A program made the translations under genes and the position numbers. A DNA stretch of 64,000 nt from an uncultured Lutibacter sp. (GTDB lineage: Bacteria > Bacteroidota > Bacteroidia > Flavobacteriales > Flavobacteriaceae): contig NZ_CANLRG010000010.1 in assembly GCF_947493565.1 (NCBI RefSeq), positions 1 to 64,000 on the forward strand, written 5' to 3'. Positions 1,595 to 21,394 of this stretch are shown here, piece by piece (position 1 is the stretch's first letter; each line of letters starts with the position of its first letter). The notes under the pieces were generated by a model. The model was given only the letters and a program-made list of their open reading frames with translations. It was not told the origin of the DNA and ran no database searches.

Positions 1595-4500
1595 TTAGAA
1601 TATTAAGTTAAGACCTAATGTTACTGTTCTAGGCATAGGGAATTCTCCATATTGAAAACCACCTACTTCAGGTGAATCACCTGAATAACTTTTAAAGTAA
1701 TGTAGATTACTTCCTGTTACATACACATTAAGTTTTTGCACAACATCATTAAAATATTTTGTTGGTACACTATAACTAAATGTAATTTCTCTAAGAGCTA
1801 AATAATCCCCTTTTTCCCAAAAACGACTACTTGCTGTTCCTCCTCTATAAATATTACTTTGTGCATCTACAAATATAAAACGTGGTAAATCTGTATCAGT
1901 ATTAGTAGGTGACCAAGAGTTTAATACTTCAATTGGTTGGTTTAAGTTACCTTGCGTTTGTGCCAAACCTTTTCCTCTAATATGATTATGAACCATATGA
2001 CCAGTAGCAAAATCTGTTTTAATGAATAAGTTAAAGTTTTTATAACTTACACTTGATGTTAAACCACCAATTAAAGTTGGTGTAGCTCTACCAATTATTT
2101 TTCTATCTAAACTATTAATTACATTATCACCATTTTGATCTACCCAAGCAACATCTCCTGGAAAACGTTGAGTTGGATTACGTAATAATTCATCTACTCT
2201 AGATGCGTGTGCATCAACAGCAGCTTGATCTGCATAAATATAATCTTGCTCGTATGCTACAATATAATCGTTTATACGTTTCCCTTCTTGTAACCCTCCA
2301 ACATATTCATTTTGTCCTGTTTTAGGGTTGTAAATTTCTGTACCACCTTGTCTGTTTAAATCAAAATCATTGTCAGGTAGTTTAATTGCGTAATTTTTGT
2401 TAGTAGAAAATGAAGCTCCTATATTCCAAGTGATTTCTTCTTTTCTAATTACATCGGCATTTACTTCCAATTCGAAACCTTTATTTCTTAGCGTTCCATT
2501 GTTTGTTAATATACCACTAAACCCTGTCCAGTATGGTAAGGTTAAATTTGCTAATTTCCCTTTAACATCTCTTGAATATACATCTGTAATAAAGTTAAGT
2601 CTGCCGTCTAAAAATGATATATCTAAACCAGCATTAAAAGTTGTTGAACTTTCCCAAACAAGGTTTAAAGTAGGTAATCCTGTATTTGCATAACCTGTTT
2701 GACCATTATAAACACCTTGCGATCCATAAGATCCAAAAACACCATAATTACTAAGTACATCTTGGTTTCCGTTAGAACCATAACTTAATCTTGGTTTTAA
2801 TTTAGAAACAAATTTGCTAATTGGTGAGTCTTGTATAAAGTCTTCGTTATGAGCATTCCACCCAACAGATAAACTTGGGAAAACTTCAAATTTTTCATTT
2901 CCAATTCTAGAAGTACCATCACGTCTAAAAGTTGCAGATAAAAGATATCTACTATCAAAATCATATAATAATCTACCAAAAGTAGATACCAGTGCATATT
3001 CTGTTTCAAAACTATATGCATCAGTTGGCTCCGCACCAGCGTTTAATGTTTCAATTAAATCTGTAGGTGAACCCTTTGTTGCAGCACTTGAATAAAATTT
3101 ATTTTCTTTAAAATACTCTGCACCAACCAAGGCATTAAAACTATGATTTCCAATAGACTTAGTGTAATTTAATGTCCCTGTTAATTGAGTTACTAAATCT
3201 CTTCTTAAGCTAGTTGAAGCATTTCGTGATGTGTTTAATGGGTTTGTACTTGCCCCAGTAGTATATGCTCTATTAAAACTCTCGTTATGGTTGTTAATAG
3301 TAGTATGACTACCTTGCACAGATGCTTTTAAGTTTTCTAAAATATCCCAATCAAGACTAACTGTAGCAGCTAAACGTTGTTCTAAATTTTTTCTAATAAA
3401 CTTATCTTGATAGTATAATGGGTTTCCAAAACCTTGATTTGTTCCTGGACTTAAAATATCAGATAATGTACCGTCTAGATTATTATCATACGTTCTAGAA
3501 GTTGGTGCTTGCCCTTGAAATCTTCTAAACACAGTATCATCTCCTCCAAGTGGACTTAAACTTAAATTAGAGTGAGAATATAAAACACTAGAGTTAACTT
3601 ATACATTCTTTACAACCTCATAAGATCCAGTAAATTTACCTGAATATCTTTTAAATCCAGAACCTAGAATTAATCCGTCGTTATCTAATATACCTAAACC
3701 AAGGTAATAAGTACCTTTTTCATTACCGCCATCAAAAGATAAATAATGATCTTTAGATGCACTGTCTTGGTAAATATTTTTACTTACATCGTTATCTAAG
3801 TATAAAATTTCTTTGCCTGGGTTTAGCGGGTCAGCTACAGTTTTCCAACCTGGCTGATTTAATAAATATTGATTATCAGCAGTTAAAAACTGAGTTGTAA
3901 ATGCTGAAGTTGTTGTGTTATTTCCAGTTGAAAAAGCAGTTGCTCCATTATTTAAAAACCCTGAATCAAAATTTGTTCTTCCAGTTACTTCAGTATAATT
4001 AGCTACAGCTTGTCTGTTGTAAGTAATAAAGTCCGCTGCACCTAAATATTCCATATCAGCCCTTTCGTGGTTTACACTATACTTATATTTATAAGAAATA
4101 GAAGATCTACCTACTTTACCTGTTTTTGTTGTTACTAAAATAACACCATTTGCAGATCTAGCTCCATAAATAGCAGTTGCCGCAGCATCTTTTAATACTT
4201 CAATAGATTCAATATCATCAGCATTTAAAGCGTAAAACGATCCTGGAACACCATCAATTAAAATTAAAGGAGAACCTCCTCCACCAAATGTTGTTCCTCC
4301 ACGTAAAATAATAGAAGGTGTAGAACCTGGTTGACCAGTATTGTTGGTAACTCGTAAACCAGCAACTTGCCCTTGTAAAGCTGTTGCCGCGTTTGACCGT
4401 GTCGAAGTCTCTAACACTTGTGTGTCAAGCTTTGAAATAGAAGTTGTTAGTGTGGTTCTAGCTTGTGAACCATATCCAGTTACAATTACCTCGTCTAACA

Positions 4501-4820: not shown

Positions 4821-4833
4821 TATGTATTACATA
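4821..4833. promoter_or_regulatory. Nan operator 1 (susC start-site copy)
   Basis: TATGTATTACATA, a 5-3-5 palindrome. It begins four bases after the minus-strand -7 element of susC, so a bound protein would cover the transcription start. It is one of five near-identical copies in the locus. Assignment to the GntR protein encoded nearby is inference. Confidence 0.75.
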
Positions 4834-4880: not shown

Positions 4881-4893
4881 TATGTATAACATA
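4881..4893. promoter_or_regulatory. Nan operator 2 (upstream of susC promoter)
   Basis: TATGTATAACATA. It lies just upstream of the susC -33 element, 60 bp centre-to-centre from operator 1. Two sites flanking one promoter would suit cooperative repression or looping. Confidence 0.65.
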
Positions 4894-5011: not shown

Positions 5012-5024
5012 TATGTAATACATA
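5012..5024. promoter_or_regulatory. Nan operator 3 (nanA)
   Basis: TATGTAATACATA, a perfect match to the 5-3-5 pattern TATGTnnnACATA. It is placed with the same three-base gap after the -7 element as at susC and at the epimerase gene. Confidence 0.75.
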
Positions 5025-5039
5025 ATACTTTTTTATTAT

Positions 5040-5945
5040 ATGGAAGTGAATAATTTAATAGCAGCTACATATGCACCTATGCATATTGATGGTTCCTTGA
5101 ATGTTAATATTATTAAATCTTATAGCGAATTTTTGATAAAAAATAAAGTTGAAGGAGTTTTTATGAATGGCTCCACTGGAGATTTTGTTTCATTAACTAC
5201 AGAGGAGCGGAAACAAATTACACTAGCATGGTCAAAAACTAAATCCTCAAATTTATATTTAATAGATCACGTAGGAGATCCTAGTTTAAAAGTAGCTAAG
5301 GATTTAGCTGCACATGCTTCTAACAAAGTTGATGCTATAGCAGTACTAGCACCATTTTACTTTAAGTTAAATAGTGTACAAAAGTTAGTAGAATATTGTA
5401 AAGAAGTAGCAGCAAGTGCTCCAAATTTACCTTTTTATTATTATCATATACCATTATTGAGCGGTGCTAATTTAAATATGTTAGAATTTTTAAAATTAGC
5501 TTCTAATCAAATTCCAAATTTAAAAGGTATTAAGTTTACAAATAACAACTTAATTGATTATTTACAGTGTAAAAATTTCCAAGGTGGTAAATACAATATT
5601 TTATTTGGATTTGATGAAATTTTTATTTCAAGCTTATCGTTAGGTGCTACAGGATGGGTTGGAAGTACTTACAATCATATAGCTCCAATTTATTATAAGA
5701 TTAAAGAGCTGTTTGAATTTGGAAAAATCGCAGAAGCTTCAGAACTGCAATCTAAAGCTATTCGGTTTGTTCAAATACTAGATGAAAAAGGAGGTTTTAA
5801 TGGAGTTGGAAAGGGGTTTATGAAAACTTTAGGGATTGATTGTGGTCCAAGTAGGTTTCCACACAGTACTCCAACTAAAAAAGTTTATGAAGAAATTAAG
5901 TATGAACTTGATCAATTAGGAATATTGGATTATTTAAGTAAATAA
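5040..5945 (+). CDS. nanA: N-acetylneuraminate lyase
   Basis: Cytoplasmic class I aldolase that splits N-acetylneuraminate into N-acetylmannosamine and pyruvate. At 301 residues it has the normal DHDPS/NAL family length. The carboxylate-binding GSTG loop is at residues 44-47. The catalytic tyrosine is Y135 in YYYHIP, and the Schiff-base lysine is K165 in KGIKFT, at the same position as in E. coli NanA. The YYHIP context and the sialidase, epimerase and acetylesterase genes downstream favour sialate lyase over dihydrodipicolinate synthase. It is transcribed divergently from susC, has its own promoter with an operator on the start site, and is followed by a strong hairpin terminator, so it forms a single-gene unit. 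Confidence 0.9.
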   Translation: MEVNNLIAATYAPMHIDGSLNVNIIKSYSEFLIKNKVEGVFMNGSTGDFVSLTTEERKQITLAWSKTKSSNLYLIDHVGDPSLKVAKDLAAHASNKVDAIAVLAPFYFKLNSVQKLVEYCKEVAASAPNLPFYYYHIPLLSGANLNMLEFLKLASNQIPNLKGIKFTNNNLIDYLQCKNFQGGKYNILFGFDEIFISSLSLGATGWVGSTYNHIAPIYYKIKELFEFGKIAEASELQSKAIRFVQILDEKGGFNGVGKGFMKTLGIDCGPSRFPHSTPTKKVYEEIKYELDQLGILDYLSK

Positions 5946-6204: not shown

Positions 6205-6927
6205 TTAAGATTTAAAGGTGGCGTTTAAAACCCTATCAAAATGAGGTTCTAAATGTTGTCTCATACCTTTTCTAAACCCTTTTAAATTGTCTTCTTTTAA
6301 ATAATTTAGAAGCTCCCTATGAGTAACAAATTTTTTAGAGTATTTATAACTATCATAGTTTTTTAATTTGTGCTCATGAAAATACTGAAATACAGGTAGT
6401 AGTAAATTTTGAAATCTTTGTAATGTGTTATTTCCAGACATTTCATATAGTTTTCCATGGAAAGCAATTTCGGCATCTAAACTAAATATTGCGGTATCAG
6501 TATTGTCTTTTTCCATTTGTGTAACAATAGCATCTAGTTCAATCAAATCCTCTTCGGTTTTTCTTTCAAATAATAATTCAATCATTCCCATTTCTAGAAT
6601 TAAACGAAGTTCAAATATGTCTTTTAACATTTCTGCTCCAAGTAAATTTGAATCTAGTGCTTTTTCAATATTTAAAATTATGTCAGGTTCTGTCAAAACC
6701 ATGCCTTTATGTTTTTTAGACTCAATAATACCAATGGTTCTAAGCCTTAAAAGTGCCTCTCTTACCACTGTTCTACTTACTCCTAAAGCTTCGGCAAATT
6801 CCAATTCTTTTGGAATAGAATCACCTATTTTCAGTTTATTTTCTTTAAAAAAATCTATTAGGCGTATTTCAACTTTATCAACTAATGATAAATTTTTTAA
6901 GGGTTCTAATTTTGTTAAATATTTCAT
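6205..6927 (-). CDS. GntR-family (FadR subfamily) regulator of the sialic-acid locus
   Basis: DNA-binding transcription factor. Starting at ATG 6925-6927 it has 240 residues, and a further 15 residues upstream depend on a TTG start and look non-coding. The winged helix-turn-helix occupies about residues 15-80 (KELEFAEALGVSRTVVREAL). A helical FCD ligand-binding domain follows, with metal-site type histidines in DAEIAFHGKLY and THRELLNYL. It sits between nanA and the epimerase operon, transcribed towards nanA's end. The minus-strand box TATATTTG (complement of 7021-7028) may be its promoter, which would put operator 4 upstream of it and allow autoregulation. The likely effector is a sialic-acid catabolite; that is inferred from context. 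Confidence 0.85.
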   Translation of the reverse strand: MKYLTKLEPLKNLSLVDKVEIRLIDFFKENKLKIGDSIPKELEFAEALGVSRTVVREALLRLRTIGIIESKKHKGMVLTEPDIILNIEKALDSNLLGAEMLKDIFELRLILEMGMIELLFERKTEEDLIELDAIVTQMEKDNTDTAIFSLDAEIAFHGKLYEMSGNNTLQRFQNLLLPVFQYFHEHKLKNYDSYKYSKKFVTHRELLNYLKEDNLKGFRKGMRQHLEPHFDRVLNATFKS

Positions 6928-7017
6928 TAAATATAAATTGGTGAGTATGAATTTGTTTGAATTCAAAAGCAACAGCTAATGTAATAACAAAAATTCAAAA
7001 ATAATAATTTTAGTTTC

Positions 7018-7048
7018 TTTCAAATATATATAAAAAAAACTATATTTG
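7018..7048 (+). promoter_or_regulatory. Promoter of the nanE-sialidase operon
   Basis: TTTC (7018-7021), 19 bases, then a perfect -7 element TATATTTG (7041-7048). It precedes the epimerase start at 7070 and is overlapped by operator 4 at the start site. The opposite strand carries TATATTTG at 7021-7028, possibly for the divergent regulator. Confidence 0.7.
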
Positions 7049-7051
7049 TAT

Positions 7052-7064
7052 TATGTTATACATA
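7052..7064. promoter_or_regulatory. Nan operator 4 (epimerase operon)
   Basis: TATGTTATACATA, beginning four bases after the -7 element, as at susC and nanA. It lies between the regulator gene and the long catabolic operon. Confidence 0.75.
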
Positions 7065-7069
7065 AAAAA

Positions 7070-8245
7070 ATGAAAAAATATTCAAATTTATATAAAGATA
7101 CATTATTGAAAAATGTTATTCCTTTTTGGGAAAAAAACTCAATTGATACGGTTAATGGAGGTTATTTTACTTGTTTAGATGATGAAGGTAAAGTTTATGA
7201 TTCCGATAAATTTATGTGGCTTCAAGGAAGGCAAGCTTGGTTATTTTCTATGCTCTATAATAAAGTTGAAAAAAATAATAAATGGCTTGAAATAGCTAAA
7301 ATTGGTGTTGATTTTATATGTAAACATGGGATGGATAGTAATGGTAATTTTTATTTTTCAACTACTTGTGATGGTAAACCATTAGTGCAACCATACAACA
7401 TTTTTTCAGATTGTTTTGCCGCAATGGCTTTTAGTCAATATGCGATAGCTACAGGAGATGAGAAAATAAAAGAACTTGCAAAACAAACTTATAGAAACAT
7501 ATTAAAAAAGAAAAAAAATCCAAAAGGGGTATATGAAAAAACAACCAATGCAAGACCTTTAAAAAATTTTGCGTTACCTATGATCTTATCTAATTTAGTT
7601 TTAGAATTAGAAGATGTTTTAGAAAAAGAAGAAGTTGAAGACACAATAGATTTTAGTATTCGAGAGGTTATGGATGTTTTTAGAGATAAAAACTCTGGTT
7701 TAATCTATGAATTTGTTGGCTTAGATGGAACACATGAAGATAGTTTTAATGGGCGTCTTTTAAATCCAGGACATGGTATAGAAGCTATGTGGTTTATGAT
7801 AGATATTGGTGTTAGAAGGAATGATGATAATTTAATTAAAAAGGCTACAGATACAATTTTAAAAATTTTAGAATATAGTTGGGATACAAAGTATGGAGGA
7901 ATCTTTTATTTTATGGATGCCTATGGCAAACCTCCACAACAATTAGAATGGGATCAAAAATTATGGTGGGTTCATTTAGAAACATTAGTGGCGCTTAGTA
8001 AAGCTTATGAACATACTAGAAGAGAAGAATTAATAACTTGGTATGAAAAAGTACATGATTATACTTGGTCACATTTTTCTGATTCAAAAAATGGAGAATG
8101 GTTTGGATATTTAAATAGACAAGGAGAAGTTTTATTAAATTTAAAAGGAGGTAAATGGAAAGGATGTTTTCATGTTCCTAGAGCTATGTTTCAATGTTGG
8201 AAATCATTTGAAAAAATTGAAACATCAATTAAAACAAATAAATAG
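7070..8245 (+). CDS. nanE: N-acylglucosamine 2-epimerase (AGE family), ManNAc to GlcNAc
   Basis: Cytoplasmic epimerase that should convert ManNAc from the lyase into GlcNAc. Starting at ATG 7070 it has 391 residues, close to the usual 390-420. A TTG eight codons upstream falls inside the operator and is unlikely to be used. AGE (alpha/alpha)6-barrel blocks are visible: [15 protein letters not shown], the catalytic-histidine segment [10 protein letters not shown], and [13 protein letters not shown] near the C terminus. Bacteroidetes nan clusters use this AGE-type enzyme rather than the ManNAc-6-P pathway, so a GlcNAc kinase should exist elsewhere. It is the first gene of the operon. Other AGE substrates such as cellobiose are less likely in this context. 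Confidence 0.88.
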
Positions 8246-8309: not shown

Positions 8310-9083
8310 ATGGAATCTAAAATTAGGCCATATATTTTAGCAGAAACAAATTGGAAATTTGTTAAAAATGAGAATTTTAAAGTTGCTGTTTTACCTTGGG
8401 GTGCTACAGAAGCTCATAATTATCATTTGCCATATGCTACAGATAATTTTCAAGCTACATATATTGCTGAAGAAGCAGCTAAAATTGTTTGGGAAAATAA
8501 TGAAAAAGTAATTGTTTTACCTACAATTCCTTTTGGTGTAAATACTGGACAAATGGATATTTCGTTATGTATAAATATGAACCCATCTACACAATATGCA
8601 ATTTTAAAAGATATTGTTCAAGTCTTAAATAATCAAAATATTGAAAAGTTGGTAATTGTAAATTCACATGGAGGAAACAACTTTAAACAAATTATTAGAG
8701 AACTAAGTTTAGAATTTCCAAAAGTATTTATATGCTCACTAAATTGGTGGCAAGTCGAAAATGCAAATAAATATTTTGAAACCCCAGGTGACCATGCAGG
8801 TGAATTAGAAACATCAGTAATGTTGCATATTAAACCAAACTTAACACTGCCTCTTGAACAAGCAGGAAACGGAAATGAAAAAAAGTTTAAAATTGTTGGA
8901 CTAAGAGAAGGGTGGGTGTCTGCTCAAAGACAATGGGGTAAAATAAGTAACGACACTGGAGTTGGAAACCCTCAAAAAGCAACTAAAGAGAAAGGAGCTA
9001 AATTTTTAAAAATTGTAACTCAAAAAGTAGCAAATTTTTTAGAAGAACTTTCAAAAACTGATTTAGATAAAATGTATGAATAA
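8310..9083 (+). CDS. Creatininase-family amidohydrolase of unknown substrate
   Basis: A 257-residue cytoplasmic protein with no signal peptide. Creatininase-superfamily metal ligands are present: PWGATEAHNYHLPYATD near residue 30, NSHGGN near 117, and GDHAGELETS near 155. Members hydrolyse amide bonds in small cyclic or formylated compounds, for example creatinine or pterin-related amides, with two metals. It lies between the epimerase and the sialidase, six bases before the latter, so it is co-expressed with sialic-acid catabolism. The substrate is not known. A role on an N-acyl sugar or a modified sialic acid is only a guess from location. Confidence 0.8.
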   Translation: MESKIRPYILAETNWKFVKNENFKVAVLPWGATEAHNYHLPYATDNFQATYIAEEAAKIVWENNEKVIVLPTIPFGVNTGQMDISLCINMNPSTQYAILKDIVQVLNNQNIEKLVIVNSHGGNNFKQIIRELSLEFPKVFICSLNWWQVENANKYFETPGDHAGELETSVMLHIKPNLTLPLEQAGNGNEKKFKIVGLREGWVSAQRQWGKISNDTGVGNPQKATKEKGAKFLKIVTQKVANFLEELSKTDLDKMYE

Positions 9084-9089
9084 TTTAAT

Positions 9090-10235
9090 ATGTATAAAAC
9101 TTTTAAAATGAATAAAATATCCTTACTACTAATTTCAATATGCTTATTGAGTTGTAATTTAAAAAAGCAAAATGAAACACATAAAGAAGAAATTGAAAAG
9201 GAAACATTAGTATTTCAAGATTTATTTAATGCTTCTATGAATGAAAATGTAGAATGTTATAGAATTCCTTCAATTGTTACTGCTCCAAATGGAGATTTAA
9301 TTGCTTCAATAGATGAGCGAGTTCCTGGTTGTGGAGATTTAAAATGGAGTAAAGACATTAATATTATTGTTAGAAGAAGTTCTGATAATGGTAAAACTTG
9401 GTCTGAAATTGAAACTGTTGTAGATTTTCCCTATGGAAAATCAGCCTCAGACCCTTCTATGATTGTTGATAGTGTTACCAATGAAATATTTCTTTTTTAT
9501 AATTATATGGATTTAGATGCTGAAAAAGACATCTATTATTTACATGTTGTAAAAAGCTCCGATAATGGTAAAACTTGGAGTGACCCAACTGATATTACAA
9601 GTCAAATTGCAAAACCTGAATGGCATAATGATTTTAAATTTATAACTTCAGGCAGAGGAATTCAAACCAAAACAGGTAAATTATTGCATACAATGGTAAA
9701 TTTAAATAGTGGACTGCACGTATTTGGAAGTGATGATCACGGAAAAACTTGGTATTTTATTGATGTGCCTATTCAACCAGCAGATGAATCTAAAATAATA
9801 GAACTTGCAGACGGAACTTTAATGATAAATGCCAGAGTAAATGGAAAAGGTCTACGTTATGTGCATACTTCAACAGATGAAGGCCTAACTTGGCAAACCA
9901 ACGCAGCCCCAGAATTAATTGACCCAGGTTGTAATGCCAGTATTATTCGCTATACTGCTATTGAAGATGGTTATAAAAAAAACAGATTACTTTTTTCAAA
10001 TGCAAAAATGGAAAAAGGAAGAAAAAATATGACCGTTAGAATAAGTTACGATGAAGGAAAAACTTGGAGCGAAGGAAAAACTATTTATGCTGGCTCATCT
10101 GCTTATTCATCTCTAACCATTCTAAAAAATGGAGATATAGGGTTGTTTTTTGAACAAGATGAATATACCAAAAATCCATTTGTAAGTTTTTCTTTAGAAT
10201 GGCTAACCGATGGAAAAGATACTTTAAGTCCATAA
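9090..10235 (+). CDS. nanH: Exo-alpha-sialidase, GH33 lipoprotein
   Basis: Releases terminal sialic acid from glycans. It has 381 residues with a lipoprotein signal ending LLSC (cysteine 22 from this start; ATG 9108 is an alternative start). The sialidase YRIP motif (residues 54-57) supplies the first arginine of the triad. Asp-boxes of the form S-x-D-x-G-x-T-W recur five times: SSDNGKTW twice, SDDHGKTW, STDEGLTW and SYDEGKTW, as expected for a six-bladed propeller. No carbohydrate-binding module is seen. The lipid anchor places it in the periplasm or on the cell surface. It is a member of the operon starting at 7070. Confidence 0.92.
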   Translation: MYKTFKMNKISLLLISICLLSCNLKKQNETHKEEIEKETLVFQDLFNASMNENVECYRIPSIVTAPNGDLIASIDERVPGCGDLKWSKDINIIVRRSSDNGKTWSEIETVVDFPYGKSASDPSMIVDSVTNEIFLFYNYMDLDAEKDIYYLHVVKSSDNGKTWSDPTDITSQIAKPEWHNDFKFITSGRGIQTKTGKLLHTMVNLNSGLHVFGSDDHGKTWYFIDVPIQPADESKIIELADGTLMINARVNGKGLRYVHTSTDEGLTWQTNAAPELIDPGCNASIIRYTAIEDGYKKNRLLFSNAKMEKGRKNMTVRISYDEGKTWSEGKTIYAGSSAYSSLTILKNGDIGLFFEQDEYTKNPFVSFSLEWLTDGKDTLSP

Positions 10236-10278: not shown

Positions 10279-12360
10279 ATGAATTCAAAAAAAATGAAAT
10301 ACTTTATTGTTATTTTGGCTTTTGTTATTTCATCCATTTGTAAAAGTCAAACTATTAAAGTAGCCTGTATTGGAGATAGTGTTACATATGGCTATGGTAT
10401 AGAAAATAGAGAAAATAATAGCTATCCAGCTCAATTACAACAATTATTAGGTGCTAATTATAAAGTAGCTAATTTTGGTTTTTCTGGAGCTACTATGTTA
10501 AAAAAAGGCCACAAACCATATTGGGATAAAGAAGTTTTTAAAAAATCATTAGAATTTGAACCAACTATTGTAATTATACATTTAGGATTAAACGACCAAG
10601 GGAATAACAATTGGCCACAACATAAAAAAGAGTTTGAAAGCGATTATTTAGATATGATTGCTACCTATAAAAATCTCCCTTCCAAACCGACTGTTATTAT
10701 TTGTAAAATGACTCCTACTTTTTCTGGACATCATTGGTTTGAAGAAGGAATGAGAGAAAGTTTTAAAGAAATTCAAACTAAAATTGAACAGATTGCTGTT
10801 AAAGCTAATGTTAAAGTTATTGATTTACACGAACCCTTATATCGTTTTCCTGAATATTTTCCAGATGATTTGCATCCGACAAAAGAAGGTGCTAAAATAA
10901 TTGCAAAAAAAGTTTATAGTGCTATTTCAGGTAATTATAGCGGTTTAAAAGTGCCTTTATTATATGGTGAAAACATGGTATTACAGAGAAATAAAACTAT
11001 AAATTTCCAAGGAACAGCCAATTATAATGATAAGATCACGATTGAATTTAACAACAAAGTAAAAACGACAATAACTGACTTTAATGGAAATTGGAAATTA
11101 GCTTATGAGCCAATGCAAGCAGGTGGTCCATTTCCTTTAAAAATTACTTCACCAAACACCTCAAAAAGTATTGAAAAAGTATTTGTTGGTGAAGTTTGGC
11201 TAGCTTCTGGACAATCTAATATGGATTTTAAGGTGCAATCAATGGAAAGTGCTGCAACGGTTTTAAAAGATTCTTTAAATAAAAATGTTTTCTTGTTTTC
11301 AATGGATGGAAAAGCTTTGTCTAGTCAGAAATTTACAGAAGATGAACTTTTAAATTGCAATGCAACCAATTATTTTGAATCATCTGGCTGGCAAAAAACA
11401 ACAACTAAAAATCTTGAAAATTTTTCAGCAGTTGCATATACCTTTGCTTATAATCTTCAAAAAAAAATAAATATTCCAGTTGGTATTATTTGCAATGCTA
11501 TTGGCGGCTCTCCCATTCAAAGTTGGATTAGCAGAGAAACTATGGAGCAAACACATGCAACAGTAGATTTGCTAAACGATACACATTTAAATCCGCTTGT
11601 TGATAGCTGGGTTGCTAAAAGAATTGTGTTAAATATGAAGAACGAAAAAAATACAAACATAAAAGCAAGACATCCTTATCAACCTACCACCTTATTTGAT
11701 GCTGGAATAATGCCTATTAAGAATTATGGAATAAAAGGTGTTATTTGGTATCAAGGTGAATCGAATGCAGAACAACCTGAATTACATTCCAACTTGTTTA
11801 AATTATTAGTAAAAGATTGGCGGTTTCATTTTAAAAATCCTGAATTACCTTTTTATTTTGTACAATTAAGCAGTATTGAAAGACCAACTTGGGGAGCATT
11901 TAGAGATTCACAAAGAAGATTATTAGAAATACCAAATACAGGAATGGCTGTTTCTTTAGATGTTGGCAATAAAACAGATGTACATCCAAAAAAGAAATGG
12001 GTTGTAGGTGAACGCTTGTCAAAAATTGCACTTCATAAAAATTATAATTTCTCAAACGAATTTTCAGGACCACTACTCGATTTTGTAAATGTAAAAGGAA
12101 ACAAATTACAGGTTTATTTTAAACATGCCGAAGGATTAACAACTTCAAATGGAGAAAAAGTAACCGATATTTTTATTGCTAATTCAGAGAAGTTATTTGT
12201 GCCTGCAAAAGCTAAAATTAATAAAAATATATTAGAAGTTTGGTCTTCAGAAATTAAAAATCCGAGGTATGTAAAATATGGCTATACACCATTTACAAAA
12301 GGAAACTTAATAAATAAACAAGGTTTACCAGCATCTACATTCTCAAATCTAGTAGAATAA
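10279..12360 (+). CDS. nanS: Bimodular sialate O-acetylesterase (SGNH + SASA domains)
   Basis: Removes O-acetyl groups that block sialidase and lyase action. The 693-residue exported protein has a signal peptide of about 24 residues, then two esterase modules. The first is GDSL/SGNH (residues 27-215): GDSVTYG with nucleophile S34, oxyanion block HLGLNDQ, and DDLHPTKEGAK with the Asp/His pair. The second is a sialate O-acetylesterase (SASA) domain (about 225-690): ASGQSNM near 308-314 and YQGESN near 490. A tandem esterase layout is known in Bacteroidetes NanS/EstA-type enzymes. Two sites could act on acetyls at different positions; that division is inferred. The 43-base gap to the sialidase gene keeps it in the operon. 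Confidence 0.88.
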   Translation: MNSKKMKYFIVILAFVISSICKSQTIKVACIGDSVTYGYGIENRENNSYPAQLQQLLGANYKVANFGFSGATMLKKGHKPYWDKEVFKKSLEFEPTIVIIHLGLNDQGNNNWPQHKKEFESDYLDMIATYKNLPSKPTVIICKMTPTFSGHHWFEEGMRESFKEIQTKIEQIAVKANVKVIDLHEPLYRFPEYFPDDLHPTKEGAKIIAKKVYSAISGNYSGLKVPLLYGENMVLQRNKTINFQGTANYNDKITIEFNNKVKTTITDFNGNWKLAYEPMQAGGPFPLKITSPNTSKSIEKVFVGEVWLASGQSNMDFKVQSMESAATVLKDSLNKNVFLFSMDGKALSSQKFTEDELLNCNATNYFESSGWQKTTTKNLENFSAVAYTFAYNLQKKINIPVGIICNAIGGSPIQSWISRETMEQTHATVDLLNDTHLNPLVDSWVAKRIVLNMKNEKNTNIKARHPYQPTTLFDAGIMPIKNYGIKGVIWYQGESNAEQPELHSNLFKLLVKDWRFHFKNPELPFYFVQLSSIERPTWGAFRDSQRRLLEIPNTGMAVSLDVGNKTDVHPKKKWVVGERLSKIALHKNYNFSNEFSGPLLDFVNVKGNKLQVYFKHAEGLTTSNGEKVTDIFIANSEKLFVPAKAKINKNILEVWSSEIKNPRYVKYGYTPFTKGNLINKQGLPASTFSNLVE

Positions 12361-12376
12361 TCTAAAATTAAATAAA

Positions 12377-13561
12377 ATGAAATTTAAATCTTTTTTTTTA
12401 GTATCAGTTTTACTAGTCACAAGTACTATTTTTGCACAAAAATTTGAAAATTTAGCACAAACTCCACCAATGGGATGGAATAGTTGGAACAGTTTTCAAT
12501 GTGAAAATGTAAATGAAACAGTAATTAAAGAAATGGCAGATGCCATGGTTGAAAATGGCTTAAAAAATGCTGGTTATGAATATATTGTAATTGATGATTG
12601 CTGGCAGATTGGGCGTGATAAAGATGGTTATATTATTGTAGATAAAGAAAAATTTCCTTCTGGAATTAAAAGTTTAGCAGATTATATTCACTCAAAAGGA
12701 CTAAAATTTGGGATTTATTCAGATGCTGGAACAAAAACCTGTGCTGGTCGCCCTGGAAGTAAAGGCTTTGAATTAGAAGATGCAAAAACGTATGCTAAAT
12801 GGGATGTGGATTATTTAAAGTATGATTGGTGTTTTACTGAAGGCCAAGATGCTAAAATTTCTTATAAAAAAATGCGTGATGCTTTATATAAAGCTGGCAG
12901 ACCAATTGTTTTTAGTATGTGCGAGTGGGGCGAAAACAAACCTTGGGAATGGGCAAAAAACGTAGGACATTTATGGAGAACTACACTAGATATTGATATG
13001 AAAGGTAGATTTGATGGAGATGTTTGGGACAATCATATCGGTTGGACAAATATTGTAGATATGCAGGTTGGATTAGAAAAATATGCCGGACCAGGACACT
13101 GGAACGATCCCGATATGTTAGCTGTTGGAAATAATGATATGCCACAAAATGAAGCCAGAGCCCATTTTAGTATGTGGTGCATGTTAGCAGCTCCGCTTAT
13201 GGCAGGAAACGATTTAAGAGCAATGTCTATAAACGATCAAGATATTTTAACAAATAAAGCTTTAATTGCTGTAAATCAAGATATTTTAGGTAAACAAGGC
13301 TTTAAGATTGAAGATTTTGGAAATTTTGAAATTTGGCAAAAACCCTTAGAAAATGGTGATATTGCAATTTGTTTGTTTAATAGAGACATTACTAATAAAA
13401 AATATAAAGTAAATTGGTCTACCATTAAAATTAAAGGTTTTTCTGGTAATTATCAGGTAAAAGATCTTTGGAAAGATAAAGTTATTGGATCTAGTAACAA
13501 AGAATTTACTATAGAAATACCTAGCAGAGATGTTGTTGTTTTTAGATTAATTAGAACATAA
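12377..13561 (+). CDS. GH27 alpha-galactosidase / alpha-N-acetylgalactosaminidase (copy 1)
   Basis: Retaining glycosidase that removes terminal alpha-galactose or alpha-GalNAc. It has 394 residues with a signal peptide ending near FAQ (residue 21). GH27 signatures are PPMGWNSWNSF, VIDDCWQ, the nucleophile D150 in YLKYDWC, the predicted acid/base D205 in RTTLDID, and GHWNDPDML. A small C-terminal beta domain follows (about residues 300-394). The length matches GH27. Choice between galactosidase and N-acetylgalactosaminidase cannot be made by eye. In the sialidase operon, with the gene on its 3' side encoding a hexosaminidase, it probably trims de-sialylated glycoprotein or mucin-type chains. 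Confidence 0.9.
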   Translation: MKFKSFFLVSVLLVTSTIFAQKFENLAQTPPMGWNSWNSFQCENVNETVIKEMADAMVENGLKNAGYEYIVIDDCWQIGRDKDGYIIVDKEKFPSGIKSLADYIHSKGLKFGIYSDAGTKTCAGRPGSKGFELEDAKTYAKWDVDYLKYDWCFTEGQDAKISYKKMRDALYKAGRPIVFSMCEWGENKPWEWAKNVGHLWRTTLDIDMKGRFDGDVWDNHIGWTNIVDMQVGLEKYAGPGHWNDPDMLAVGNNDMPQNEARAHFSMWCMLAAPLMAGNDLRAMSINDQDILTNKALIAVNQDILGKQGFKIEDFGNFEIWQKPLENGDIAICLFNRDITNKKYKVNWSTIKIKGFSGNYQVKDLWKDKVIGSSNKEFTIEIPSRDVVVFRLIRT

Positions 13562-13573
13562 GATTCTCTCAGC

Positions 13574-15619
13574 ATGCGTCTTTTTTTATTCAACTTTTTG
13601 TTTATAGTTATTGGTAGCTTCGGAACTATATTTAGTTTAAATACTTGTACAACAATTGAATCTGATAGTACAACTTTACAAGTAAAATATCCAATTATTC
13701 CATCGCCTCAAGAAATTAGTTATGGTGAAACTGAAATTTCTTTTAAAACTATTACATTTTCAAATACAGTTTTTGAATCTGAAACGAACAAATTAGTTGC
13801 TTTTTTTAAAGAAAATGGTATTGAAGTATCTAATAATGGTTTAAAAATTAACTTCATTAAACAAAACATTGCGAAAAACAATAGTGAAGAAGCTTACAAA
13901 ATTCAAATAAATTCAGAAATTACAATAACTGCAAATACTGGAAAGGGTGCATTTTATGCCATTCAAACTTTAAAACAAATTTTCAGGAAAAATAACAATA
14001 AAGGTGAATTCCCTACACTAACTATTACCGATTGGCCAGCATTTAAAATTCGTGGATTTATGCATGATACTGGAAGAAACTTTCAGTCAGTTGCACAATT
14101 AAAAGAGCAAATAGAAGTCCTTTCAAACTATAAATACAATATTTTTCATTGGCATTTAACAGACGATCCTGCGTGGAGATTGGAAAGTAAATTATATCCG
14201 CAATTGCAAGATGAAAATGCAACAACCAGACAAAAAGGAAAGTTTTACACACAAGAAGATTTTAAAGAAATTGTGGCTTTTTGTAAAGAAAGACATATTA
14301 CTGTAATTCCAGAGTTTGATATACCAGGGCATTCTAGAGCCTTTAGAACAGCCTTAGGTTTTGAATCTATGCGAGACAAACAAGCATTACCTGTTTTATT
14401 AGCTCTTTTTAAAGAATTAATGAGTTTAACAACTCCAGAAGATATGCCATATATTCATATTGGAACCGATGAAGTACGTAATAAAGAAGAGTATGTTTCA
14501 AAAGCGTTTATTTTAGAAATTATGAACTTTATCAAACCCAACAATAGAGAATTAATTGTTTGGAAAGAAGGTATTGAAATAGCCGAAGATTCAACATCAA
14601 TAAATCAACTTTGGGCACAACATGCACCTAGAAAAGGACATCGATTTATAGATTCTAGAGCAAATTACATCAATCATTTAGATCCATTTGCAGGAATGTC
14701 TCGCTTATTTTTTCAGCAACCCTGTAGGCAACCACAAGGAGATAAAATTGCTTTAGGCGGCATTTTATGTGCGTGGCCAGATAATAATGTAGCACATGAA
14801 AGAGACATTTTAAAACAAAACCCTATATATCCATCAATGGTATTTTATTCGGATGCTATTTGGAAAGGACGTACAAAAAATTACAAAGAGTATTGGGCAA
14901 AATTACCAAAACAACACACAAAAGAGTTTAACGATTTTAAACAGTTTGAAGAAAAAGTAATTGCGCATAGAGATTTATTTTTTGAAGGAAAGGAATTTCC
15001 TTATGTAGCACAGACTAATATTAATTGGAAAATTATTGGTCCTTTTAACCATCATGGAGATTTTAACACTACTTTTGAAGTAGAAAACAACATAAAATTG
15101 GGCTACAAAACTGAAGGTAAAACTTTTACTTGGAACGATTCTATTGTTGGCGGTACTATTCATTTAAAACATTTTTTCGGATTTCCATCATTTACAGATA
15201 AAAATAGTGGAACGTATTATGCATATTCAGAAATTTATTCGCCAAAAGATCAAGTTCAAGATTTCTGGATTGGTTTTCAAGGTTGGTCGCGTTCTGGAGG
15301 AAGACGTATTGGTCCATTTCCAAATATTGGAAAGTGGCATACCACCAATCCTAAAATTTGGGTAAACAAACAAGAAATTGAACCTCCCGTTTGGAAACAA
15401 CCAAATTTAGCAACCAAAACTGATGAAATACCATTTATAGATGAAGATTATTTTTATAGAAATCCTACTAAAGTAAATCTTAAAAAAGGATGGAATACCA
15501 TATTATTAAAAATTCCTCACGGAGAAAACTCTTGGAAATGGATGTTTACTTGTATTCCCATTAATATTAATGAATTGGGTATTAAGGAAGTAAAGGATTT
15601 AAAATTTAGAACAAATTAA
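13574..15619 (+). CDS. GH20 beta-N-acetylhexosaminidase
   Basis: Exo-acting hydrolase for terminal beta-GlcNAc or GalNAc by substrate-assisted catalysis. It has 681 residues, with a hydrophobic export signal (residues 1-25) ending SLNTC, a weak lipobox. A GH20b-type N-terminal domain (about 38-150) precedes the barrel (about 155-450). The barrel contains GFMHDTGRNF, FHWHLTDDPAWRLE and the catalytic Asp-Glu pair D299-E300 in HIGTDEV. The C-terminal 200 residues form an extra beta-rich domain that I cannot name. It starts 12 bases after the GH27 gene, so the two are translated from one message. Products are expected to be GlcNAc or GalNAc monosaccharides. Confidence 0.9.
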   Translation: MRLFLFNFLFIVIGSFGTIFSLNTCTTIESDSTTLQVKYPIIPSPQEISYGETEISFKTITFSNTVFESETNKLVAFFKENGIEVSNNGLKINFIKQNIAKNNSEEAYKIQINSEITITANTGKGAFYAIQTLKQIFRKNNNKGEFPTLTITDWPAFKIRGFMHDTGRNFQSVAQLKEQIEVLSNYKYNIFHWHLTDDPAWRLESKLYPQLQDENATTRQKGKFYTQEDFKEIVAFCKERHITVIPEFDIPGHSRAFRTALGFESMRDKQALPVLLALFKELMSLTTPEDMPYIHIGTDEVRNKEEYVSKAFILEIMNFIKPNNRELIVWKEGIEIAEDSTSINQLWAQHAPRKGHRFIDSRANYINHLDPFAGMSRLFFQQPCRQPQGDKIALGGILCAWPDNNVAHERDILKQNPIYPSMVFYSDAIWKGRTKNYKEYWAKLPKQHTKEFNDFKQFEEKVIAHRDLFFEGKEFPYVAQTNINWKIIGPFNHHGDFNTTFEVENNIKLGYKTEGKTFTWNDSIVGGTIHLKHFFGFPSFTDKNSGTYYAYSEIYSPKDQVQDFWIGFQGWSRSGGRRIGPFPNIGKWHTTNPKIWVNKQEIEPPVWKQPNLATKTDEIPFIDEDYFYRNPTKVNLKKGWNTILLKIPHGENSWKWMFTCIPININELGIKEVKDLKFRTN

Positions 15620-15630
15620 TAAATTATTTT

Positions 15631-16287
15631 ATGAAAAAATACATTCTCCTATTAGTTGTTTTTTGTTTAACAATTAACAGTTATTCTCAAAAAAAATATT
15701 CAGAACATTATTACAAAAGGTATGAACTTTTTAAAAGTGAAGCTGATACAAAAAATGAGATCGTTTTTTTAGGAAACAGTATTACGGAGGGTGGCGACTG
15801 GAAAGGTCTATTTCCAACTATAAATGCTGTAAACCGTGGAATTAGCGGAGACGTAACCGATGGTATTTTAAATAGATTAGATGAAGTACTTTCTTCTCAA
15901 CCTAAAAAAATATTCATACTGATTGGAACAAACGATTTGGCAAGAGGGAACAATACGAAGCATGTAATTGAAAATTGCAAAAAAATAATTGAACATATTC
16001 TTCAAAACTCTATAGAAACTGAGTTATATATTCAAAGTTTATTGCCTGTAAATCCAATGATTGGAGAAAAATTTTATGGACATAAAAATAAACAACAAGA
16101 AATTAAACAAGTTAATTCACATTTAAAAAGTTTAGCAAATACATTTAATTTGGTTTATATAAACCTTTATAAGTCATTTAGAAATTCTAAAGGTTTTTTA
16201 AAGCCTAAATTTACTTATGATGGATTACATTTATCGGATAAAGGGTATAAAAAATGGAGAAATAAAATAAGAAAACATGTACTATAG
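15631..16287 (+). CDS. Exported SGNH/GDSL esterase
   Basis: A 218-residue secreted hydrolase with a signal peptide (residues 1-19, ending SYSQ). SGNH blocks are complete: FLGNSITEGGDW with the nucleophile serine, NRGISGD, IFILIGTNDLARGN with the asparagine, and YDGLHLSDKGYKKW with Asp/His. It resembles PAF-acetylhydrolase-like lipases/esterases found in Bacteroidetes glycan loci. Being last in this transcription unit and 11 bases after GH20, it is likely another carbohydrate acetylesterase. Whether it acts on sialic acid or on another sugar is unknown. Confidence 0.83.
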   Translation: MKKYILLLVVFCLTINSYSQKKYSEHYYKRYELFKSEADTKNEIVFLGNSITEGGDWKGLFPTINAVNRGISGDVTDGILNRLDEVLSSQPKKIFILIGTNDLARGNNTKHVIENCKKIIEHILQNSIETELYIQSLLPVNPMIGEKFYGHKNKQQEIKQVNSHLKSLANTFNLVYINLYKSFRNSKGFLKPKFTYDGLHLSDKGYKKWRNKIRKHVL

Positions 16288-16307: not shown

Positions 16308-16320
16308 TATGTTGTACATA
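16308..16320. promoter_or_regulatory. Nan operator 5 (symporter operon)
   Basis: TATGTTGTACATA. It overlaps the -33 region of the symporter promoter rather than the start site, unlike operators 1, 3 and 4. A bound regulator would block sigma factor contact. Confidence 0.7.
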
Positions 16321-16379: not shown

Positions 16380-19070
16380 ATGAGATTGCCAAAGATTTTT
16401 ACAAGTTTAGTATTTAGCATATTTTTAATGTCAATATGTAATTCTCAAACACAAAATATATTTTCATTTACCAATGAAATAGATATTCCAAATACTAAAG
16501 GTTTAAATGGCTCTTTTATAGGAGTGCATAATGATGTATTAATACTTGCCGGAGGAACCAATTACCCTGATAAACCTGTATGGGAAGATGGCGTTAAAAA
16601 ATGGTATGATGTAATTTATGTTTTAGAGAAAACAGTAGATGCTTCTAAATGGTATAAAGTATCTTTAAAACTTCCTAGACCATTGGCTAATGGAGTTTCA
16701 ATCACTACATCAAAAGGAGTTTTATGTATTGGAGGTGATAATGAAAAAGGAATTTATAACGAAGTGTTTTTTCTTAAGTGGAATAAAGAAAGGAAAACGG
16801 TTGAAATAGAATTTTTACCTCCAATGCCCATTCCTTTGTCAAATATGGGAGGAAGTGTTGTTGGAGACTTGGTTTATCTTGTAGGTGGGCAACAGTTAAA
16901 AGATCAAAAATCTACATCAAAATTTCTTTCTTTTAGCTTGTCTTCTTCTATTATTAAAAAAGCATATACATGGGAAATACTTCCAAATTTTCCTGGAAAA
17001 GGTAGGATCCAGCCTGTGGTAGTAGGGCAAAGTAATGGACATCAAAATTGCTTGTATGTTTTTAGTGGGTTATATGTAAATCCTACAGCAAAAACTAAGT
17101 ATGAAATGTTATCTGATGTGTATGAATATGATCCTCATAAAATTAAATGGACAAAGAAAAAATCAATTCCAAGTAATTTAACCCCAGGAATAAAAAAAGG
17201 TTATTTAGCTGCTGCGCCTGCAATTAAAAATGGAGATTCGCATATTCTTATTTTTGGAGGTGCTGGAGGAGAAAGGCAATTCTTATCAGAAAGAATATCA
17301 ATAATAGAAGAAATAAACACATTAAAAGAAAATAAAGATCAAACTTTAGAAAATAAATTACAACAACTTGAAATCAAATCTAAAGAACTTTTAAAAAACA
17401 CCTCATTTTCTAAAACAATTTGGGTTTATCACACCATTACCGATACTTGGGTAAAGAAGGGTGAATTAGATGATGAAACTCAAATTGTAACACAAGCTGT
17501 AAAATGGAGAAATAATATTATAATTCCTGGAGGTGAAATAAGCCCTGGAATTAGAACCAATAAAGTTAAAGTTTTAACTTTTAAACCTTATAAAGCTAGT
17601 TTTGGTATAGTAAATTATCTTACTTTAATACTCTATTTATCTTTGATGATTTTTATGGGGTGGTTTTTTTCACGAAGAAATAATACCACTAACGATTATT
17701 TTTTAGGAGGAGGACGTATACCTTGGTGGGCAGCTGGGTTAAGTATTTATGCAACTATGCTAAGCGCAATAACTTATTTATCGCAACCAGCACTTGCCTA
17801 TTCATTTGATTGGCAAGCTTATTTAGGTTATTTTTCAATTTTATTAATTGTACCCATAATTATAACTTTTTATCTACCATTTTTTAGAAAGCTGAATTTA
17901 ACTACAGCTTATGAATATCTTGAAAAAAGATTTAATGTAACGATAAGAATTTTTAGTAGCTCAACATTTGTTTTATTTCAATTAGTAAGAATGGGAGTTG
18001 TTGTTTACTTACCAGCTCTAGCATTGTCAACTGTAATGGGTATGGATATTTATTTAGCAATAATTGTAATGGGTGTTTTGGCAATACTCTATACTTATAT
18101 GGGGGGGATTGAAGCTGTTATTTGGACAGATGTTGTACAAGTTATAGTGCTAATTTTAGGGTTAATTGCAGGGTTGGTATTTATTGTTATTGAAGTTGGC
18201 GATATTGGCTATATTTTTAAAGTGGCGGTTGAAGATAGCAAGTTTAAAATGATTGATTTTAGATTTAGTTTTACTGAAATTGTTACTTGGTCTCTTTTTT
18301 TAGGTTCATTTGCTTTAAATTTTTCATCTTATACAACAGATCAAGCAGTAGTTCAGCGATATATGACAACCTCTAATGAAAAAGAGGCTAGAAAAAGTAT
18401 ATGGTTAAATGGTATCATTGCAATACCTTTTGGAATATTAATTTTTGGAATGGGAACTTTTTTATATGTATATTTTAAAGAGCACCCAGAGTTTTTAACA
18501 GTTGGAATGCAAAACGATAGTGTTTTTCCATTATTTATAACAAATCATTTACCTCCAGGAGTTGCAGGGTTAGTTATTGCTGGAATATTTTCAGCATCAA
18601 TGTCTAGTTTAGATAGTAGTATGCATACGGTATCAACAGTAGTTACTATTGATTATTATAAGCGATTTTCAAAATCATATTCAGACAGTAAAGGGTTAAT
18701 ATTAGCAAAATATATTACGCTAATTGTTGGTGTTTTTGGAACAGTAATAGCTTGTTTAATGGCTGCTTTTCCAGTAAAATCAATATTTTTCTTTTTTCAA
18801 GAAATAATTGGGCTATTTGGAAGTGCAATTTCCGGGATATTTATCTTAGGGATTTTTATAAAAAAATCAAACTGGATAGGCGCCTTAATTGGAGCAGTAT
18901 TGAGCATTATAGTATTAGTAATAATTAAATATAATACCCCTTTAAATTTCTATATTTATCCATTAATAGCTATACCTACTTGTGTTATTACTGGTTTTAT
19001 GTTTAGTTTATTTTTTCCAATTAAACAAAATAATATTAGTAATTTAGTTTATCAAAAAAATGTGAAATAG
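16380..19070 (+). CDS. Sialic acid mutarotase (kelch) fused to sodium:solute symporter
   Basis: An 896-residue two-part protein. After a signal peptide (residues 1-23, ending NSQ) comes a periplasmic kelch propeller of the N-acetylneuraminate mutarotase (NanM) type, about residues 30-400. Blades include GVHNDVLILAGGTNYPD and GGSVVGDLVYLVGGQQ, and a charged helical insert lies near 305-340. From about residue 405 it is a multi-spanning SSS-family Na+ symporter with the typical start NDYFLGGGRIPWWAAGLSIY and the sodium-site region SASMSSLDSSMHTVSTVV. The fusion would convert alpha-Neu5Ac to the beta anomer directly at the importer. No other inner-membrane sialate transporter is present in the locus, so this is the likely uptake system. 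Substrate is inferred from the domain pair and context. Confidence 0.88.
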   Translation: MRLPKIFTSLVFSIFLMSICNSQTQNIFSFTNEIDIPNTKGLNGSFIGVHNDVLILAGGTNYPDKPVWEDGVKKWYDVIYVLEKTVDASKWYKVSLKLPRPLANGVSITTSKGVLCIGGDNEKGIYNEVFFLKWNKERKTVEIEFLPPMPIPLSNMGGSVVGDLVYLVGGQQLKDQKSTSKFLSFSLSSSIIKKAYTWEILPNFPGKGRIQPVVVGQSNGHQNCLYVFSGLYVNPTAKTKYEMLSDVYEYDPHKIKWTKKKSIPSNLTPGIKKGYLAAAPAIKNGDSHILIFGGAGGERQFLSERISIIEEINTLKENKDQTLENKLQQLEIKSKELLKNTSFSKTIWVYHTITDTWVKKGELDDETQIVTQAVKWRNNIIIPGGEISPGIRTNKVKVLTFKPYKASFGIVNYLTLILYLSLMIFMGWFFSRRNNTTNDYFLGGGRIPWWAAGLSIYATMLSAITYLSQPALAYSFDWQAYLGYFSILLIVPIIITFYLPFFRKLNLTTAYEYLEKRFNVTIRIFSSSTFVLFQLVRMGVVVYLPALALSTVMGMDIYLAIIVMGVLAILYTYMGGIEAVIWTDVVQVIVLILGLIAGLVFIVIEVGDIGYIFKVAVEDSKFKMIDFRFSFTEIVTWSLFLGSFALNFSSYTTDQAVVQRYMTTSNEKEARKSIWLNGIIAIPFGILIFGMGTFLYVYFKEHPEFLTVGMQNDSVFPLFITNHLPPGVAGLVIAGIFSASMSSLDSSMHTVSTVVTIDYYKRFSKSYSDSKGLILAKYITLIVGVFGTVIACLMAAFPVKSIFFFFQEIIGLFGSAISGIFILGIFIKKSNWIGALIGAVLSIIVLVIIKYNTPLNFYIYPLIAIPTCVITGFMFSLFFPIKQNNISNLVYQKNVK

Positions 19071-20416: not shown

Positions 20417-21394
20417 CTATTCTGAAATTACAAAGGTTTGAAGCATATTTTTACTTAAAGCATTTGGAACTTCTGAAATAAGAGCATATTTTCCTTTTTC
20501 TAGAGTAGCTGTAAAATAGCCTATACTACCAGCGGGCATATCATTAACGCCTCCTAAAAAAGTAATATGAGATGGGGCAGGTTCTATTAAGCCTTCTGGA
20601 TTAGCCCAATTCATCCAATGCTCTAACTTATCTATATCTGCGTTTTCTTCTAATTTTACAAGATGTATATCATGTCCTACAAAATTTTCATGTACAATTT
20701 GATCTTTAAAGTAAACTGAAAAAGTATGTTTACCCGAACTAATGGTGTCGTTAATAACTATTCCATCTGTACTAGAAATATTAATTGAAATGTCAGCTTT
20801 AGGTTCTTTATAACCAGAATCATTATTTGTTACAACAAGATCTTTAGTCATACCCATTGAGGTATGAAATACACCATTTTCCATTTTTACATAACATTCA
20901 ATAATGTATTTGCCTTGCTTTAAATTTAAATTGGTAATACTCACTTGATTTGGTGATAATAGACCAGATCCACCAACAAATATAACATCATTAAACCATT
21001 CTGGAAGTTTTGAAAACTCAGCATAACCTTCTTCTGTTTTTCCTTCCATTATTAGTTTCATAGCATTATCAAATACAGGTGCTATAAAATTTTCAGCATC
21101 TTCTGAAGTCTTCCCTTCAGGATATTTATCAATAAGAAAAAAGTGTGTTTGAGGAGATGAATTTTTATAACGAAATGTATTCCAGCCAGAAGAAATTGTA
21201 TCTGGCATTTGAAAATCCATATTTTCAGTTAAAATTTCTACTACTTTTTCTTTTTCAATTTTTTCTTTTTCAATATTCGTTTCAGATTGTTTTTTGTCAG
21301 TTTTACAGGAATAAATTAACAAAAAAACAGGTAAAATGAAAATTGACAAAATAACAAAGTTATAAGCGTTCTTGTAATTTTTAAATGGTTTCAT
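20417..21394 (-). CDS. Hypothetical lipoprotein with two related beta-rich halves
   Basis: Not recognised with certainty. The 325-residue protein has an export signal ending LIYSCK (cysteine about 30), then a Lys/Glu-rich linker. Two halves look related: each has D-T-I-S-S-G followed by an aromatic strand (DTISSGWNTFRYKN, then DTISSGKHTFSVYF), an H-x-x-L-x-K/D-type stretch, and each ends with a GKY block (KQGKYIIECYVKMENG; EKGKYALISEVPNALSK). This pattern resembles cupredoxin-like folds, but no Cys/His copper ligand set is obvious. It is convergent with the glycan locus and separate from it. Function unknown; periplasmic or surface location is likely. Confidence 0.7.
   Translation of the reverse strand: MKPFKNYKNAYNFVILSIFILPVFLLIYSCKTDKKQSETNIEKEKIEKEKVVEILTENMDFQMPDTISSGWNTFRYKNSSPQTHFFLIDKYPEGKTSEDAENFIAPVFDNAMKLIMEGKTEEGYAEFSKLPEWFNDVIFVGGSGLLSPNQVSITNLNLKQGKYIIECYVKMENGVFHTSMGMTKDLVVTNNDSGYKEPKADISINISSTDGIVINDTISSGKHTFSVYFKDQIVHENFVGHDIHLVKLEENADIDKLEHWMNWANPEGLIEPAPSHITFLGGVNDMPAGSIGYFTATLEKGKYALISEVPNALSKNMLQTFVISE

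Follow-up and report, generated by a model that had tools for sequence, protein, structure and literature searches.

A Creatininase-Fold Hydrolase of the 3LUB Type Predicted to Belong to a Sialic Acid Regulon in Flavobacteriaceae

Creatininase, known from the structures 1J2T and 1Q3K and from the 3A6 series, shares its superfamily with MftE, the diketo-inositol hydrolase IolN, and the formamide deformylase ArfB. The metal ligands of this superfamily are, as we take it, Glu34, His36, Asp45, and His120 in creatininase numbering, to which creatininase itself presumably adds Glu122; a role for the adjacent Tyr121 is likewise presumed. According to PMC9478397, cyclic amides are substrates of creatininases, and the related protein BrbF serves riboflavin synthesis as a formamidase. 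A further structure from Bacteroides fragilis, entry 3LUB of the Protein Data Bank, was deposited by 2010 under the name of a putative creatinine amidohydrolase. The deposition contains 24 zinc ions over 12 chains, 20 of which were identified by the method of PMC3975891; a legend in that paper terms them native zinc sites.

Here, we describe a relative of 3LUB encoded at positions 8310–9083 (forward strand) of a 64,000-nucleotide window from an uncultured Lutibacter sp. (contig NZ_CANLRG010000010.1), the window being the whole stretch of DNA that was analyzed. The open reading frame is intact, starts with ATG, and codes for 257 amino acids. The Pfam model Creatininase (PF02633) covers residues 12–244 with an E-value of 3.6e-57 (194 bits against a cut-off of 31.3), and this is the only protein in the genome of the window that matches the model. 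Among solved structures, 3LUB is the best sequence match (215 bits), followed by a Nostoc protein and then by creatininase. The protein is 43–44% identical to 3LUB over nearly the full length, and both contain the motifs E-x-H-N-x-H-L-P-Y-x-T-D and HGGN. A structure model (pLDDT 96, pTM 0.92) superimposes on 3LUB with a Z-score of 34.1 and an rmsd of 1.5 over 250 residues. The same model matches creatininase with a Z-score of about 25; the fold is common to the two proteins, and the identity in the structural alignment is 21–22%.

The residues Glu34, His36, Asp45, and His120 align with the identically numbered residues of creatininase and, together with His162, Glu167, Arg207, and Trp209, show no variation across the 87 rows of an alignment that includes the window. 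This result bears out the remark in a preliminary description of the gene that its metal ligands look intact. Both Tyr121 and Glu122 of creatininase are replaced by glycine, so that the site is not identical to that of creatininase. All NCBIfam equivalog models that match the protein do so below their cut-offs: creatininase (EC 3.5.2.10, TIGR04448) with 71 bits against 235, MftE (TIGR03964) with 79.6 against 172, IolN (NF041098) with 39.3 against 245, and ArfB (NF033501) with 29.6 against 180. Judged by its sequence, the protein is a member of an uncharacterized subfamily of the creatininase superfamily, which we refer to as 3LUB-type. No signal peptide was recognized by eye, so the enzyme would act after uptake of its substrate. 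Creatininases found in a plasmid search were all less than 60% identical to it (about 27–32% among the matches listed, 30 of 388), and the viral contigs searched contained no relative.

The gene stands within a cluster for the use of sialic acid. It is preceded by an AGE-type N-acyl-D-glucosamine 2-epimerase (7070–8245, forward strand; NF052547, 651 bits, above the cut-off of 600), for which the ATG at 7070 was taken as the start in place of the TTG at 7046 with which the list of open reading frames begins. It is followed by a sialidase with BNR repeats (9090–10235, forward; PF13088, 6.5e-33). The gaps measure 64 bp to the epimerase and 6 bp to the sialidase. The tight spacing noted in the preliminary description is thus real, but the upstream neighbor is the AGE-type enzyme and not the ManNAc-6P epimerase nanE. 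Further upstream lie an N-acetylneuraminate lyase-like aldolase of the DHDPS family (5040–5945, forward; PF00701), which the best NCBIfam NanA models match with 159 and 134 bits, below their cut-offs of 281 and 382, and a FadR/NanR-type GntR regulator on the reverse strand (6205–6927; PF07729, PF00392), which the NanR subfamily model matches with 85 bits, below its cut-off of 260. Downstream of the sialidase, all on the forward strand, follow a protein with SGNH and sialate O-acetylesterase (SASA) domains (10279–12360; PF13472, PF03629), an α-galactosidase family protein that we take to be GH27 (12377–13561; PF16499), a GH20 hexosaminidase (13574–15619; PF00728), a small SGNH-like hydrolase assigned by eye from its motif (15631–16287), and an 896-residue fusion of a NanM-type mutarotase with an SSS transporter (16380–19070; PF24996, PF00474). 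Such NanM-SSS fusions also occur in other nan loci. The cluster also contains a susC/susD-like pair, named by eye. Behind it, on the opposite strand, 20417–21394 codes for a protein that was predicted by eye to be secreted and has no Pfam match. In another nan gene run, a PhyH-family dioxygenase (PF05721) is encoded at 7002–7886 of locus L002, and a protein resembling it by eye follows the creatininase-like gene in L180.

The exact palindrome TATGTNNNACATA occurs five times in the window against 0.13 expected, a number reached by none of 100 shuffles. All five sites fall inside the sialic acid cluster: TATGTATTACATA at 4821–4833 and TATGTATAACATA at 4881–4893 between susC and the nanA-like aldolase gene, TATGTAATACATA at 5012–5024 ahead of the latter, the operator-like TATGTTATACATA at 7052–7064 before the epimerase, and TATGTTGTACATA at 16308–16320 before the NanM-SSS gene. 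With one mismatch allowed, nine sites are found against a mean of 4.9, and 7 of 100 shuffles give as many, which is not above chance. The exact palindrome is present in 28 of the 31 nan loci besides the window, the exceptions being L061 (a cut contig), L162, and L186. It is absent from 86 other loci amounting to 1.63 Mb (among them L064, L066, L098, and those standalone copies that were read), although part of this zero count may be due to the different base composition of these loci. It is also absent near the resident creatininase-like genes of nan genomes at L072, L074, and L081, the three of 11 that were read. The palindrome marks the sialic acid loci of Flavobacteriaceae. Its presumed binder is likely the FadR-type regulator at 6205–6927.

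Behind the site at 7052, the genes for the epimerase, the creatininase-like protein, the sialidase, the SASA protein, the GH27 and GH20 enzymes, and the small SGNH-like hydrolase form a single run on the same strand, which ends before the palindrome at 16308. From this gene run and the common palindrome, we predict that the creatininase-like gene is part of a sialic acid operon and regulon. The earlier suggestion that it is served by the same operator holds to the extent that it shares one operon. It has no palindrome of its own directly upstream, so any control would have to come from the site before the epimerase.

The 3LUB-type subfamily was found in 39 of 199 genomes of the family, in one case as a split fragment, and in 61 of 296 genomes of the phylum (five overlap with the 199-genome set). 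The boundary of the subfamily is clear, as match scores drop from 176 bits to 97, with the split fragment at 113. In a tree of 94 rows, all nine nan-linked rows fall within a clade of 13 (support 99/98). A second tree included 10 more nan loci, treated L098 as nan-linked as well, and held 33 standalone rows; its 20 nan-linked rows all belong to a clade of 23 (99/99), the members without nan linkage being L064, L066, and L110. Residues specific to the nan-linked clade are Cys87 and Gln206. The preliminary description had staked its proposal on a subfamily that keeps to nan loci. For the subfamily as a whole this expectation failed, as 74 of its 94 carriers among 397 genomes of the family do not have the gene near a nan-type epimerase; only the nested clade is nearly nan-specific, with 20 of 23 rows. 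The neighborhoods of the standalone copies contain no nan genes and look like housekeeping regions with no recurrent sugar gene or partner. Their most common close neighbor on the same strand, present in 13 of 85 non-nan loci, was recognized by eye as a sterol-desaturase-like protein.

Co-occurrence with sialic acid genes across genomes, which the preliminary description had proposed as a check, is pronounced. The enzyme is present in 31 of the 33 family genomes that contain a nan-type epimerase and in 63 of the 364 others (Fisher, 2e-19). The threshold for a nan-type epimerase was 588 bits, the next value being 553, and the 364 include three genomes whose epimerase match is close to 280 bits. 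In 20 of the 33 genomes the gene is on the same contig as the epimerase, 19 times within 8 kb and once at 25 kb (G387, counted as near although its own 20 kb contain no palindrome). Eleven genomes have their copy elsewhere, with G541 assigned to this group since the contigs differ. The remaining two, G133 and G507, contain a nan locus and no copy of the enzyme, which makes the enzyme accessory to a core pathway that does not need it.

The location of the copies follows a pattern. We define a copy as a match at E 1e-28, and by this measure every one of the 94 carriers has a single copy; weaker creatininases occur in some of the genomes. A copy elsewhere is present in 11 of the 13 nan genomes that lack a near one (Fisher, 5e-7), and near and other copies exclude each other within the set of 33 (other copy in 0 of 20 against 11 of 13; 4e-7). 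Part of this exclusion reflects the general rule of one copy per genome; if second copies occurred at the base rate, the chance of seeing none among the 20 near-copy genomes would be 0.02. On the best epimerase tree, which covers 32 of the 33 genomes, loci without a near copy stand in six places, four of which have a resident copy against a base rate of 17% (binomial, 0.01). This tree implies four changes for the resident copy, of which well-supported branches force only one; for the near copy they force only three, so the independent events may be fewer. Relatedness inflates the larger co-occurrence figures, resident copies are often common to related genera, and the pattern is partly one of lineage.

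A second type of epimerase (447–553 bits) gave 17 matches. Four were inspected: nan genes are missing from the surroundings of L166, L167, and L169, and L168 represents a nan-like locus of a different kind. Genomes with the second type only carry the enzyme in 6 of 14 cases (Fisher, 0.02). Outside the family, where epimerases were classed by score alone, the enzyme occurs in four of five genomes with a match of at least 545 bits (on the contig of the epimerase in none of four) and in only two of seven with weaker matches (446–534 bits). In summary, most nan genomes hold one copy of the enzyme, either near the nan locus or elsewhere. This observation suggests that an ordinary resident enzyme can do the same job, in which case no substrate unique to sialic acid is required. 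A nan-specific substrate, such as the N-glycolyl, lactam, or amidine form suggested in the preliminary description, is a candidate.

A further hint comes from LrgA-LrgB (PF03788, PF04172), a pyruvate uptake system in Staphylococcus aureus according to PMC8805020 and PMC12632267. Of 129 loci searched, 8 contain this pair; the window, one of the 129, does not. Six of the 20 nan loci with a near copy contain the pair (L063, L068, L174, L176, L177, and L190), against none of 12 without (Fisher, 0.06). In L064 and L066, the pair lies directly beside the creatininase-like gene with no nan gene within 10 kb. Among loci without nan genes, it is thus found in two of three clade members and in none of 81 others (p = 9e-4), although L064 and L066 may share history. 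Such linkage would suit the release of a small carboxylate by the enzyme, but in the nan cases, pyruvate from the aldolase explains the pair equally well. Since L064 and L066 nest inside the nan-linked clade, they may also be remnants of a lost nan locus.

How might this enzyme work? Our preferred explanation is a cytosolic, probably dinuclear zinc hydrolase of the 3LUB type whose gene would have come under the sialic acid operator in an ancestor of some Flavobacteriaceae. There it would contribute an accessory step, most likely the attack of water on an acyl–nitrogen or similarly activated bond of an amino sugar intermediate that stems from the use of sialic acid and N-acetylhexosamines. The product released would be a small carboxylate such as acetate, glycolate, or pyruvate, and a resident copy would probably perform the same chemistry where the nan locus has none of its own. 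The invariant ligands, the 3LUB-like fold, the palindrome, the co-occurrence with the epimerase, the one-copy pattern, and the LrgA-LrgB hint speak for this hydrolysis. Against it stand G133 and G507, the NagB/PIG-L-type proteins described below, the neighborhoods of the standalone copies, the palindrome-free resident copies at L072, L074, and L081, the lineage effect, and the low frequency of the enzyme (2/7) in genomes with a weaker epimerase. On balance, we put this reading forward tentatively, as a leading candidate that has a fair way to go before it would be an even bet.

Free neuraminic acid is prone to cyclization. Possibly, the enzyme acts in metabolite repair: as creatininase opens cyclic amides, it would reopen a ring-closed or damaged side product, be it neuraminic acid in the form of a lactam, lactone, or internal imine, or an amino sugar with pyruvate attached to it. 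The need for such repair would be greater at high sialic acid flux, hence the place of the gene in the regulon. Repair would account for the accessory status of the enzyme, for the sufficiency of a resident copy, and for the gene in the 63 genomes that have no nan-type epimerase, and the cyclic amide substrates of creatininases (PMC9478397) point the same way. The side product itself is hypothetical in these bacteria, and we consider repair a possible but somewhat unlikely function.

The gene may also be a mere passenger, that is, a resident hydrolase of unrelated function that moved into a nan operon and has been carried along since. A single well-supported clade that contains all 20 nan-linked rows, the large share of the subfamily outside nan loci, the two nan genomes with no copy, and the resident copies common to related genera are what this explanation would predict. 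What it accommodates less easily is that the linkage is kept across different gene orders, with the gene placed before, between, or after those for the sialidase, GH20, and SGNH proteins, and that of the 13 genomes with no near copy, 11 have one elsewhere, and no genome has two. We therefore regard simple carriage as unlikely.

The genome of the window, which is 100% complete, contains no NagA above the cut-off (best match 26 bits against 225.65), and its sole ROK match is a polyphosphate glucokinase. A strict replacement of NagA, with the enzyme as deacetylase of GlcNAc or GlcNAc-6P, would fill this gap. The same genome encodes three glucosamine-6-phosphate deaminase-like proteins of the PRK02122 subfamily (640–650 residues; L172 6035–7960, L170 4097–6025, and L171 5164–7113), the first of which has a PIG-L deacetylase domain according to Pfam. 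These three NagB/PIG-L-type proteins probably cover de-N-acetylation, so the absence of NagA alone does not call for the creatininase-like enzyme. Moreover, among 199 genomes the enzyme occurs in 11 of the 20 in which NagA is matched at E 1e-20 (above the cut-off in 10 of them) and in 28 of 179 without (Fisher, 2e-4). As carriers go with NagA, replacement was rejected as a general function, and for genomes lacking NagA we judge it very unlikely. The NagB/PIG-L gene of L172 stands beside a NagP-like transporter and a pair of genes for a kinase-like protein (3290–4378; by eye, no NCBIfam match) and an adjoining nucleotidyltransferase-like protein (2380–3288; weak model matches), which possibly form a HexNAc-1-kinase route.

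Two associations were discarded. YhcH (PF04074) is absent from the genome of the window, but replacement of a YhcH/NanQ anomerase can be dismissed because YhcH and the enzyme occur together in L063, L067, and L174–L177, and YhcH is also found in nan loci without the enzyme (L178, L185). An apparent link to GH20 in the loci read first was dropped since GH20 also occurs in nan loci without the enzyme (L178, L185, L188, L192, L193).

Cleavage of a carbon–carbon bond in an oxidized sugar, as by IolN of the same superfamily, would suit L129 and L135, where a Gfo/Idh/MocA oxidoreductase gene overlaps the creatininase-like gene (by Pfam for L135). No such oxidoreductase was recognized by eye in the nan loci, and the match to the IolN model is far below the cut-off (39 bits against 245), which makes this chemistry highly improbable. 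Least probable of all, and barely to be entertained, is a formamidase of the pterin or riboflavin type, for which PMC9478397 provides a characterized relative in BrbF, set beside our protein by description only; the ArfB model scores 29.6 bits against 180, and the setting in a nan operon would be left unexplained.

Literature searches that paired creatininase or creatinine amidohydrolase with sialic acid, N-acetylglucosamine, or polysaccharide utilization gave no listing that connects the family with this pathway, and neither did those on sialic acid with Flavobacteriaceae and the nan operon. We see about an even chance that sialic acid catabolism in Bacteroidota includes an undescribed hydrolytic step by a creatininase-fold enzyme, whose gene may lie in the nan regulon or be a resident copy. 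This step would either remove N-acyl groups, N-glycolyl ones included, from free amino sugars or repair a cyclized side product of sialic acid. If so, the 3LUB structure gains a testable class of substrates. The canonical nan pathway consists of aldolase, epimerase, NanM, sialidase, and O-acetylesterase, and all of these enzyme classes are found in the cluster of the window. Unlike the canonical pathway, the cluster contains one extra hydrolase, and the usual drawing of the pathway as complete would then omit one step for a family of environmental bacteria.
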